Source: Acinetobacter sp. XS-4 (lineage in GTDB: Bacteria > Pseudomonadota > Gammaproteobacteria > Pseudomonadales > Moraxellaceae). Taken from it: a stretch of 64,000 bases of DNA. The notes below the pieces were generated by a model. The model made no database searches. It was given only the letters and a program-made list of their open reading frames with translations, and had not been told where the DNA came from. Within the stretch, counting starts at the first letter, position 1. Every line of letters begins with the position of its first letter. The DNA lies in the NCBI RefSeq assembly GCF_023920705.1, contig NZ_CP094657.1, positions 2,232,001-2,296,000 of the forward strand, read 5' to 3'. Positions 22,976 through 26,235 of this stretch are shown piece by piece. The position numbers and the translations under genes were made by a program.

Positions 22976-25123
22976 TTAAGCATATTGAGTACGCGTACTT
23001 TTGGAGTTGGTAATATTCATATTTAAAGGCTGTTTGCCTTGTTCAGAAAATAAATATTGAATTAATTGTGTTAACTCAACTTCAAGTTGTCTTTTTTGGG
23101 CAGTGCTCATATCCAATTTCTGAATTTGCTGCTGTAAATGTTTAATCGCATCAGCCTCTTCAATTTCTACATATTGAATTGCATAGGCATACCCTAGCGC
23201 AGCGCCTTTTAATAGGTTTTTATAAGGCAAATCATGACCTATATTTACCTCAATTGACGCAATTACTCTTTCATTATGAGTTAATTTGCGAAGTGGATCT
23301 CTTGCTACTCGTTGACAAGGGTCTTTAAAAGCATATTCACATGAGTCTAGAAAGCTTTGTGCCATGCGATCCAAATCTTTTGCATAGTTGGGTAATACAA
23401 TTGCAAGCCCTTGCTTTACTTCCCTAATTAAATTCTCTGCAAAAGATTTAACTGAACGATCCCCCATGGCAACACCAATAGATTCATAACCCAGTAAAGA
23501 TGCATACCAAGCGAGCATCGCATGTACGCCGTTCCATAGACGGTTTTTGATTAATTGAATGTCTGTAATCTGATTAACCAAGACAACTTGACGTAACTTT
23601 TCGAGTAAAGGGCTGCCTTTTTCTACATAAATTGGCATATCCGTTTCGCTATGAAACAGAATTAGGTCCATGCTTTGTAATATATGACCTGGCTGGAAAT
23701 TACGGCGCATGTTATCAACATATAAAGATGCCTGGTTTTGCTGATCTTGAGTCAGTTTATTGCAATCTTCAATTTCGACTTGTTCTTCATGCTCGACATC
23801 AGATAAATGCTGTTCAAGAAAGTAATGCTTAATGCGAAGTTGACGATATAAATTTTGATTAGATAGTTTCGAAACCATACGGTTTACAACGGTGTCGCAA
23901 AAGTAATGTTCTTTTAAAATATGCTCAGTTACATCTTCATCGTTAGTTAACTCTAGTAGAGCTTCTCTAAGATGCTTCATAACCATATATTTCGCGCCGA
24001 CTTTATTTAAAATAATTAGAAAAGTTAACGGTTCAATACATGTTTCAAGTGGCGAGTTAAAACGCGCATATAATCCTTTTGCAATTATTTTTGCTTCAGC
24101 TTCGATCGCTTGTTCAGGTAAGCAAAGTGCAATCAAACTTGAATGTGTATACATCTCTAACATTTGTTGTTCATTGTCAGAATCAACAATGGTCATATTC
24201 TCAATACGTTCATCATAAGAAAATTGCCCATAGCGAATGCTATAAGTTCCAAATGCATTCACAGCTTCACGGAAAAGACTATTTCGTGTAGAAGCAATAA
24301 TTCTCTTCGGTTTTGTGTATCCATCCCAATGTGACAAGATTTGTGCTACATAACCACCGCCAATAGCACCGAAACCATGTATTCCTACCGTAAGCTGATT
24401 TAGACTTTGAGGAAAAGATTCCTGTATCTCTGGCATATCCATAACAGGAATAAATTGGTCAAGATCAGTTAAAAAGTCATACATCTGATCATAATAAAAA
24501 TGCGCTTTTTCCAGCATTTCATCATTTGGTTCTTTAATATCTTTTAATAAAATCGTCAAACCTTTTGAAGTGTGAGCTGAAGTTAAACCATTTTCAGAAT
24601 CTTCAAACATAAGACACTGGTTAGCATCCAAGTGAAGTTGACTAGCAGCTTTTAAAAAGATCTCTGGATGCGGCTTTCCTTGTTCGACTTCATCACCACA
24701 GGTAATCACATCAAAAAACTTATAAACATTCGCATTAATTAAATATTCTTCGGCAATTGCTCTACGGCTTGAAGTCGCAACAGCCATTCTTAAACCAGAT
24801 TTTCGTAAACGTTCTAAAACTTGAACCAAACCTTTTTTAATCGGTACGCCGTGTTTTCGAATATATTCGAGTTCCATCTCATCGGCTCTTTTTCGTATTT
24901 CTTTATAGGGAACATTTACGCCATATAAACGTTGAGCCAATTGTTCAGCAGTAGTTGCGCTTAAACCTAAACATTGCATTAAATATTCGTGTGAAAATTC
25001 CTGCCCAATGAGTTCTTGAGATGCATGTTGCAATGTTTGAAACCGCAACCTCTCAGTATCAAACATTGTCCCATCCATATCAAAAATTGCTCCATGAACA
25101 GGTTTTCCATGAAAAATAAGCAC
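22976..25123 (-). CDS. mtlD: Bifunctional mannitol-1-phosphate phosphatase/dehydrogenase
   Basis: Single 715-residue protein that makes mannitol from fructose 6-phosphate: the C-terminal part reduces it to mannitol 1-phosphate and the N-terminal HAD part removes the phosphate. The HAD motif FDMDGTMFD places the nucleophile at Asp15 and the general acid at Asp17; the VATSSRRA and FEDSENG blocks follow. The dehydrogenase has the Rossmann motif HGFGAIGGG near 250 and the catalytic segment KNRLWNGVHA. This fusion is known from Acinetobacter, where mannitol is a salt-induced compatible solute. The start is GTG, preceded by AGAGGT. Confidence 0.95.
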   Translation of the reverse strand: MLIFHGKPVHGAIFDMDGTMFDTERLRFQTLQHASQELIGQEFSHEYLMQCLGLSATTAEQLAQRLYGVNVPYKEIRKRADEMELEYIRKHGVPIKKGLVQVLERLRKSGLRMAVATSSRRAIAEEYLINANVYKFFDVITCGDEVEQGKPHPEIFLKAASQLHLDANQCLMFEDSENGLTSAHTSKGLTILLKDIKEPNDEMLEKAHFYYDQMYDFLTDLDQFIPVMDMPEIQESFPQSLNQLTVGIHGFGAIGGGYVAQILSHWDGYTKPKRIIASTRNSLFREAVNAFGTYSIRYGQFSYDERIENMTIVDSDNEQQMLEMYTHSSLIALCLPEQAIEAEAKIIAKGLYARFNSPLETCIEPLTFLIILNKVGAKYMVMKHLREALLELTNDEDVTEHILKEHYFCDTVVNRMVSKLSNQNLYRQLRIKHYFLEQHLSDVEHEEQVEIEDCNKLTQDQQNQASLYVDNMRRNFQPGHILQSMDLILFHSETDMPIYVEKGSPLLEKLRQVVLVNQITDIQLIKNRLWNGVHAMLAWYASLLGYESIGVAMGDRSVKSFAENLIREVKQGLAIVLPNYAKDLDRMAQSFLDSCEYAFKDPCQRVARDPLRKLTHNERVIASIEVNIGHDLPYKNLLKGAALGYAYAIQYVEIEEADAIKHLQQQIQKLDMSTAQKRQLEVELTQLIQYLFSEQGKQPLNMNITNSKSTRTQYA

Positions 25124-25311
25124 GCTTTTACCTCTTTTTTGATCATGTTTTATTCAGGGTATACAAAAAATTGGTTAAAAAGGCAGGATATTAATAAATG
25201 AAACATTAGTGGTTATTTTTTAATCAAAAATATAAGAGATCTGTTACTGAGCAGAGTTAAAACTCTAAAAAGGTTGAACAATATAAATAAGTATGAAGCT
25301 AAGTGTAAATG

Positions 25312-25346
25312 CAAGAGCGACAAGCCATCCTCGCTTGCCGCTCTTG
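25312..25346. repeat. Strong hairpin, 14-base arms
   Basis: CAAGAGCGACAAGC (25312-25325) pairs with GCTTGCCGCTCTTG (25333-25346), one mismatch, 7-base loop. On the plus strand T-rich sequence follows; on the minus strand there is no T tract. It could end or protect an RNA made from the Fur promoter at 25.6 kb. Confidence 0.6.
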
Positions 25347-25500
25347 GTTTATTCTTTTTGTTGCGCTGATAGTATTTATTTTTCTTAGTTCCATTTACCG
25401 CTACTTGCACCCGCATATTTTTATAATGTCACGCAGGTGTCACATACCAGAAATCAACTCACCTTTTGCTATTTTCATTGTTGGTGCTTCTGGTATAACA

Positions 25501-25569
25501 CTAAAATTCATAAGAAAATGAGTATGAACTAATAGAATATAAGATTGATATTACAAACAATTTCTTCAC
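25501..25569 (-). pseudogene. Possible remnant of a secreted-protein gene behind a Fur promoter
   Basis: From GTG 25569 the frame encodes Met-Lys-Lys followed by a hydrophobic run and a Ser/Tyr-rich tail, which looks like a signal peptide, and stops with TAG after 22 codons. AAGGAG overlaps this GTG and is at ideal spacing for a TTG at 25560 in the same frame. Reading past the stop in the next frame gives about 20 more sensible codons. It may be a decayed gene, a genuine micro-ORF, or chance within a small RNA. Confidence 0.35.
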
Positions 25570-25603
25570 TCCTTGTTGGGACGAGGACTACATCGCCATT
25601 AAC

Positions 25604-25636
25604 AATAATGATAATCATTTTCATTTAATAGTTCAA
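25604..25636 (-). promoter_or_regulatory. Orphan Fur-repressed promoter
   Basis: On the minus strand TTGAAC (25631-25636), a 17-base spacer and TATCAT (25608-25613) form a good sigma-70 promoter. The 19 bases at 25604-25622 match the Fur consensus at 17 positions and cover the -10. Transcription would start near 25600 and run toward mtlD. No intact iron gene follows. Confidence 0.75.
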
Positions 25637-25767
25637 GCTTTTTTTATTATTTGTTTTTCTCTTCTTTTTTGTAAAAAGTTCTACAACAAGTAATACCTTT
25701 CAACAAAGTATTTTCTAAATGTAGCTAGAAAAACGATTGGTTCTTAAACTATGCTTCTAAACCATTA

Positions 25768-26235
25768 TTATTGATCAAGTACATCAACAAATTGGGCATT
25801 TAAAAGCTGAGCTAAATCTTTAGGATTTAAACCAATATCAAGCCCTCTTTTTCCGCCACTTACATAAATTTTACTAAAGTTTTGAGCCGATGCATCAATG
25901 ACAGTTTTTAAACGTTTCTTTTGGCCTAAAGGGCTAATTCCTCCTACTAAATACCCTGTTAAACGTTCGGCATCTTTAGGATTAGCCATCTGTAATTTTT
26001 TACATCCAAACGCCGTAGCTACTTTTTTTAAATTTAATTGGTGATTAACAGGCAAGATCGCAACGAAATAATTTTTATCGTCACTTACCATTAGAGTTTT
26101 GAATACTTCGTTTACATCTAAATCTAATTTTTCGGCTGCTTCTAATCCAAAACTTTTGGCATTTGAATCATGTTCATATTCGTGAATAGAAAATTCGATT
26201 TTATTACTTTTTAACAATCTACATGCAGGAGTCAT
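25768..26235 (-). CDS. ybaK: YbaK/EbsC-type Cys-tRNA(Pro) deacylase
   Basis: Cytoplasmic editing enzyme that hydrolyses mischarged aminoacyl-tRNA, usually Cys-tRNA(Pro). It has 155 residues, the typical length of a free-standing INS-like domain. The FKTLMV segment with a conserved lysine near 46, the [10 protein letters not shown] block near 99-108 and the [15 protein letters not shown] tail are characteristic of YbaK. The start ATG at 26235 has no strong ribosome site. Assignment to YbaK rather than ProX or another deacylase is by overall similarity. Confidence 0.88.

Follow-up and report, generated by a model that had tools for sequence, protein, structure and literature searches.

A promoter relic of the siderophore gene bfnL and a candidate Fur-repressed small RNA upstream of mtlD in the Acinetobacter calcoaceticus-baumannii complex

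Results

A Fur box lies over a promoter in the ybaK-mtlD intergenic region

The window, that is, the whole 64,000-nt stretch of Acinetobacter sp. XS-4 DNA analyzed here, carries mtlD on the minus strand (22976..25123), encoding a HAD phosphatase domain and a mannitol dehydrogenase C-terminal domain, and upstream of it a ybaK-type gene with a tRNA_edit domain (25768–26235, minus strand). The organism is, on sequence grounds, a member of the calcoaceticus-baumannii complex, and its MtlD protein is 97–98% identical to the homologues of A. calcoaceticus ANC 3811, A. pittii ATCC 19004, and Acinetobacter sp. WC-141. The gap between the two genes is 644 bp and contains no intact gene; from the Fur site described below to mtlD (25123–22976), the list of open reading frames holds only frames of 61–70 codons, none of them an intact gene.

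The Fur box AATAATGATAATCATTTTC (25604..25622) matches the consensus GATAATGATAATCATTATC at 17 of 19 positions. It is unique in the 64 kb when up to three mismatches are allowed on either strand, and no such site arose in 100 shuffles. It covers the −10 hexamer (TATCAT, 25608..25613, minus strand) of the minus-strand promoter TTGAAC-17-TATCAT, which spans 25636 to 25608 and has its −35 hexamer TTGAAC at 25631..25636 (minus strand). Promoter-like hexamer pairs alone were no commoner in the window than expected by chance (3 found vs 3.5 expected). The original prediction, made from the letters of the window, had described this site as a Fur promoter with no intact gene behind it before mtlD, and both points held.

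We collected 22 loci of the complex with a Fur box upstream of mtlD and collapsed them, before all counts, to 16 distinct sequences including the window (L001); six identical locus pairs were merged, probably the same genomes present in two collections, and L008 was cut to 196 bases in alignment A1. Conservation in related strains, on which the prediction had been staked beforehand, was found throughout: TTGNNN and TATCAT, 16 or 17 nt apart and with the Fur box over the −10, were present in all 16 distinct loci. The spacer was 17 nt in 15 of them and 16 nt in L009, which bears bfnL (see below). The mean pairwise difference of the promoter 44-mer was 0.229 over the 16 sequences. A Fur box overlapping a sigma-70-type promoter, a feature of the class of Fur-repressed small RNAs, is thus present at this locus.

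The promoter belonged to the lost siderophore gene bfnL

At L009 (genome G085), an intact gene of 206 residues lies between the same Fur box and the downstream hairpins, directly upstream of mtlD. Its product is an Acetyltransf_8 protein (PF13523, E 1.2e-37), and the gene is bfnL, the baumannoferrin acetyltransferase; a matching Fur box drives intact bfnL in L009/L141. In G085, bfnL is the last gene of a siderophore cluster with three IucA/IucC synthetases, a lysine/ornithine monooxygenase, an MFS transporter, a protein with an FhuF C-terminal domain, an RraA-like protein, a TonB-dependent receptor, a PepSY_TM protein, and one small frame. By eye, the G085 Fur box is identical at 25 of 25 bases to the box printed for A1S_1657 in the accessible part of PMC3055841, and A1S_1657 is named bfnL of baumannoferrin synthesis in that of PMC7595644. 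G085 is therefore probably A. baumannii.

In the window, a relic of the last bfnL codons with in-frame stops remains at 25454..25509 (minus strand). In local alignment to L009 bfnL, none of 1000 dinucleotide shuffles was as good, and the same held for L002, L003, L031, and L039. The relic is weaker in the A. pittii group, where 3 to 56 of 1000 shuffles were as good (six loci, L004–L008 and L036), and mostly undetectable in the A. nosocomialis group (4, 63, 368, and 910 of 1000 for L037, L010, L011, and L012, respectively). The tripeptide SQQ stands at the relic-matching place of the BfnL tail in each of the 30 homologues read, including that of G085, which indicates that this tail is a real part of the protein. 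A homologous promoter and a gene remnant thus occur at the same locus. A search at E up to 0.001 gave no bfnL match in the window's own genome and matches in 73 of 175 Acinetobacter genomes, a few of them at 22–23% identity. At the mtlD site, 15 of the 16 distinct loci are without bfnL and yet keep the Fur promoter. From these comparisons, the Fur site is the promoter of the lost gene bfnL, now joined to the former bfnL 3'UTR. Of the alternative offered at the outset, a decayed iron-regulated secreted protein, the decayed iron-regulated gene was borne out; the secreted product was not, as the gene encoded a siderophore acetyltransferase.

In L034, L035, and L090 (A. pittii and one A. lactucae locus), a 743-residue gene lies between the ybaK-type gene and the Fur site (L034:1205–3436, L035:1202–3433, L090:1206–3437), and the biosynthesis genes are absent from that place. 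The L034 product is a TonB-dependent receptor that shares 64% identity with its counterpart in the G085 cluster. Judged from gene content, the receptor kept beside the Fur site is a half-way stage in the loss of the baumannoferrin cluster.

A folded stretch with a conserved unpaired core lies behind the promoter

The hairpin-rich DNA noted in the original prediction was evident on folding: the 301-nt predicted transcript gave z = −3.0, with 0 of 100 shuffles as good. Its start near 25600 and its 3' end shortly after the last hairpin are inferred positions. On the minus strand, the predicted RNA would begin with a 5' leader (25510..25600) that differs between groups, followed by hairpin H1 (25445..25495; arms TACCAGAA and TTCTGGTA; z −2.6, 5 of 200 shuffles as good), which overlies the bfnL relic, hairpin H2 (25409..25438; arms ACCTGC and GCGGGT), a single-stranded A-rich core (25352..25404) that is unpaired in the centroid structure, and the terminator-like hairpin H3 (25312..25346). 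The core is ARN-like by eye, which we take to be a candidate Hfq-binding motif. The stretch 25400–25435, which truncates one arm of H2, showed no structure when folded alone (z +1.1, 179 of 200 shuffles as good). The intrinsic terminator scan yielded no site that satisfied its U-tract rule, and the U-tract after H3 is weak.

The mean pairwise difference among the 16 distinct sequences was 0.081 in the core, 0.137 in H2, and 0.19–0.22 in the H3 arms, against a neutral yardstick of 0.365 (four-fold sites, taken from the first 1200 bases of mtlD); H1, at 0.37–0.43, changes at about the neutral rate. Because the stretch from H3 to mtlD is conserved too (0.124), the core may owe some of its conservation to a broader conserved region. 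Over H2 and the core, L001 and L005 hardly differ, which points to recombination that lowers divergence.

In H2, all cells are paired and the sole changes are to G-U; in H3, 7 of 14 pairs have changed on both sides. Over H2 and H3 together, standard pairs fill 99.4% of the cells (a level reached by 0 of 500 shuffles), the seven double-sided changes, all in H3, were reached by 2 of 500 shuffles, and covariation was 0.305 vs 0.188 (0 of 500 shuffles; slid controls 0.03–0.11). One of the five covariation measures, the number of further pair types, was ordinary (17 vs 15.9; 127 of 500 shuffles). The analysis across relatives that had been proposed as a check thus revealed compensatory changes in H3, and a covariance model of H2, core, and H3 (R1) matched 17 of 175 Acinetobacter genomes at E < 1e-26. 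Each of the 17 loci also includes the start of mtlD and the core sequence of the Fur box. With the cut-off relaxed to E up to 1, R1 matched 36 of 175 genomes, and many of the weak matches look like chance.

These patterns bear on the possibility that the locus is purely a scar, in which an orphan Fur promoter and the old bfnL terminator region have no function and H3 is kept only to insulate mtlD. The loss of bfnL, the nearly neutral drift of the 5' leader and of H1, and the restriction of double changes to H3, as in a bare terminator, would all fit such a scar. However, the most conserved part is the unpaired core, and the Fur promoter persists in all 16 distinct loci, 15 of them without bfnL there. 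Since a terminator needs no unpaired core, a scar leaves the core unexplained, and we regard it as unlikely.

Another alternative is that the region acts in cis on mtlD, by read-through of H3 or leader control, giving mannitol synthesis an iron input. It is on the same strand, mtlD begins 189 bases past H3, the U-tract is weak, and the H3-to-mtlD stretch is conserved, all of which this reading would accommodate. On the other side, H3, a hairpin of −22 kcal/mol, is in the way, and the block 25151–25237 precedes mtlD-like genes in four other Acinetobacter loci (L013–L016) that lack any match to the rest of the region. We consider a main role of this kind quite improbable; a secondary iron input to mtlD expression, as raised in the original prediction, is possible because the U-tract after H3 is weak. 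The conserved block 25151–25237 is itself likely, given its position ahead of mtlD-like genes, to be mtlD's own regulatory region; further loci that matched it had no mtlD start by the pattern used.

The strand of the RNA was read from its base pairs. On the minus strand, H2 and H3 show G-U in 16 cells of 9 columns vs A-C in 1 cell of 1 column (cells are not independent events), and H1 shows G-U in 8 vs A-C in 2 cells. A plus-strand RNA would show the reverse, so this asymmetry places the RNA on the minus strand, behind Fur. H3 also folds better there (−22.4 kcal/mol vs −16.2 on the plus strand). A conserved non-coding RNA on the promoter's strand, a second feature of the class of Fur-repressed small RNAs, is thus present. 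A functional plus-strand RNA, with H3 read towards ybaK, would draw on the T-rich stretch past H3 on that strand, but it runs against the G-U asymmetry and the weaker fold, and the promoter scan listed no plus-strand site in 25100–25800; we hold it to be very improbable.

The leader contains AAGGAG and the frame stopping at 25501 that the original prediction had called signal-peptide-like; both are there, and the frame as a real gene proved spurious. By eye, it runs 22 codons from a GTG overlapping AAGGAG, or 19 from the next TTG. It stays open only in three close loci (L001, L002, and L039); an early stop breaks it in L003 and L031, and the 11 remaining distinct loci have other leaders. Short frames do exist in leader and core, but a short protein encoded there is barely credible, as the ATGGAACTA frame of the core shifts its reading end in L009, L010, and L037 and substitutions are mostly amino-acid-changing (by eye), and it was rejected on these frame breaks and substitutions.

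The core motif recurs in hemP 3'UTRs

The weaker R1 matches led to hemP (PF10636). In G120, G041, and G155, a Fur box precedes hemP, and the 3'UTR contains ATTATCAGCGCAATAAAAA, words that also stand in the window core, and then a terminator hairpin. The core motif AUCAGCGCAA is also present in 3'UTRs of hemP genes that are preceded by a Fur box. hemP matches were found in 174 of 175 Acinetobacter genomes, and a Fur-box-like site in all 85 hemP loci read. TCAGCGC occurs in the hemP 3'UTR of 43 of these 85, in the terminator loop in 39 and upstream of it in 4 (G120, G155, G041, and G035; by eye). The motif was present in the hemP 3'UTR of none of the 15 complex loci among the 85; the genomes of these loci have it at mtlD. 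The hemP 3'UTR also has CGTGG in 79 of the 85 loci (L208–L256, L439–L474), with A-rich repeats and a terminator; on this basis it may, throughout the genus, give rise to a Fur-controlled small RNA.

The motif ATCAGCGCAANAAAAA gave 57 matches in 32 of 175 genomes vs 2 in the reversed control, and the matches were read by eye at 30 loci. Those at L180, L184, L186, L190, L199, and L206 look like coding or chance, and at L202 and L207 the match is to an hfq leader read on its opposite strand; a further place in the complex (L175, L179, L182, and L204) is followed by no terminator and was put aside. A second 3'UTR with the motif was seen in nine complex genomes read (L181, L183, L188, L191, L192, L193, L197, L198, and L205). 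None of the nine has a Fur box within 500 bases upstream of it, the closest sites being at least 6 of 19 positions off. In the window's own genome (L205), this copy, AATCAGCGCAATAAAAA, precedes a strong terminator (C1:46276–46400, minus strand; motif at C1:46313) in the 3'UTR of a 120-residue exported-like protein without a Pfam match, between dnaJ-like and dapB-like genes, and is a candidate 3'UTR small RNA. At L165/L194 (G051:C2:103733–103806), a hemP-type 3'UTR with the motif has no hemP ahead of it, hemP being elsewhere in that genome; here, too, a 3'UTR may have outlived its gene.

The hfq leader is a candidate target

The core contains a candidate seed, ATCAGCGCAA (25361..25370, minus strand), that is complementary to the hfq leader. 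The word ATCAGCGC occurs at 83 places in the window's own genome vs 35 in a reversed control, and a DNA uptake sequence was rejected as its explanation since it has only 83 places. Of these, 78 passed the centre and duplicate rules, and 7 of the 78 distinct sites have a plausible start close by on the complementary strand, several of these frames being doubtful (about 3.5 expected by a rough, uncomputed estimate). One is the hfq leader site UUUUUUUGCGCUGAUUU, 34 nt before the start codon. GCGCTGA was present in 65 of 71 Acinetobacter hfq leaders read, and in the 69 leaders with GCGCT the four preceding T are invariant, positions further out varying. The duplex of core and hfq leader has a predicted energy of −24.6 kcal/mol; it was the best among 173 leaders of the own genome, a set in which such places are overrepresented, and 3 of 1000 core shuffles were as good, the hfq leader having been picked through the 8-base match.

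Among 70 genomes in which both were read, 33 had the hfq element and the hemP motif, 31 the hfq element only, 6 neither, and none the hemP motif only (Fisher 0.026, uncorrected for kinship). The 6 genomes whose hfq lacks GCGCTGA showed no compensatory change between hfq leader and hemP 3'UTR. The second core block (complement CCATTTACYGCT, up to one mismatch) had no excess of places (59 vs 70 in the reversed control); of its three exact matches, one is the window, and the other two have no convincing leader by eye. hfq is, from these pairings, the leading target of the predicted RNA, at about one chance in three.

Three further observations were made in these searches. Many of the hfq leaders examined (among L292 and L339–L368) have an inverted repeat, ACTATCTTT..AAAGATAGT, on either side of the probable −10 of the hfq promoter, a possible operator. 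At L260:1500 (minus strand) starts an 81-residue protein that looks, by eye, similar to an Sm/Hfq-like fold and has GCGCTGAT in codons 4–6. At C1:848628–851015 of the own genome, CCAGTTACTGCT recurs at spacings of 297 or multiples, and the region probably encodes a long repetitive surface protein.

Discussion

Because the unpaired core is conserved, the pairing is strand-specific, and 15 distinct loci without bfnL at this place have retained the Fur promoter, we consider the best reading to be a Fur-repressed small RNA, made from the bfnL promoter relic and the former bfnL 3'UTR and acting in trans with Hfq; comparative sequence evidence makes this probable, with appreciable room for doubt. 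The proposal of a Fur-repressed small RNA in the original prediction thus draws support from sequence conservation, the compensatory changes, and the G-U asymmetry, and its likening to RyhB/PrrF found no match: the Rfam scan of the whole window at gathering scores gave neither, and in a permissive scan of 25100–25800 PrrF reached 16.2 bits vs a gathering score of 90, RyhB was absent, and nothing was credible.

In the proposed course of events, bfnL and its cluster would have been lost and the Fur-repressed promoter left behind, fused directly to the former 3'UTR. Fur would block it in iron-rich cells. When iron is scarce, transcription would start near 25600 and yield an RNA of about 290 nt (some 190 nt for the A. 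nosocomialis group) ending after H3, the presumed terminator. This RNA would act in trans, with the A-rich core as the likely Hfq-binding and pairing part. Such an RNA may let the cell adjust to iron shortage. In the weakest step, the seed AUCAGCGCAA would pair with UUUUGCGCUGAUUU in the hfq leader and tie the Hfq level to iron.

The hemP findings suggest a broader circuit, which we put forward as doubtful. RNAs from Fur-controlled 3'UTRs would share the seed AUCAGCGC and pair with the fixed UUUUGCGCUGAUUU in the hfq leader, and iron starvation would reset the Hfq level. In the complex, the role would have moved from hemP, which would serve in many species, to bfnL or its relic, an RNA surviving its own siderophore gene.

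RyhB of enterobacteria, PrrF of Pseudomonas, HrrF of Haemophilus, BrrF of Burkholderia, and IsrR of Staphylococcus are iron-repressed small RNAs. The predicted RNA resembles them in its Fur box over the promoter, intergenic position, 3' hairpin, and conserved unpaired core; unlike them, it has no Rfam match and stems from a siderophore gene, and its proposed target is hfq rather than mRNAs of iron enzymes. With bfnL (A1S_1657), as far as described in the accessible parts of PMC7595644 and PMC3055841, it shares the Fur promoter, the place beside mtlD in G085, and a homologous 3' end and 3'UTR, whereas the coding gene is missing from the window's genome. HemZ of A. baumannii is, according to the available part of PMC12802169, an Hfq-dependent small RNA derived from a 3'UTR. 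The sequence of the predicted RNA likewise comes from an mRNA 3'UTR, but its host gene is lost, the old gene promoter would drive the 3'UTR directly, and Hfq dependence is predicted. It belongs to the same genus as Aar, which partial sources report to rise in iron limitation, AbsR11/25/28, and PtaZ. Position was compared for AbsR28 and PtaZ alone, and from what those sources give, AbsR28 (between A1S_2838 and A1S_2839) and PtaZ (which may come from ackA-pta) differ from it in place.

No Fur-controlled small RNA at the mtlD/bfnL place is described in the literature titles or abstract openings surveyed. Nor is one mentioned in the accessible parts of PMC11472050, PMC11796373, PMC12802169, PMC12646401, PMC5538643, and PMC3976366, which include RNA-interactome work on A. 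baumannii; their supplementary tables may list it uncommented. A. baumannii has a strong Fur-mediated response to iron. The available part of PMC3055841 (2011) reports that no RyhB or PrrF homologue was found in strain ATCC 17978, and leaves a role for small RNAs open.

A promoter and a 3'UTR that outlive the gene between them would be a simple route for the origin of a small RNA gene. If the pairing with hfq is true, iron would act on the whole post-transcriptional machinery and not on single mRNAs. A Fur-repressed RNA conserved across the whole complex could be the RyhB/PrrF-type piece that is missing in A. baumannii.
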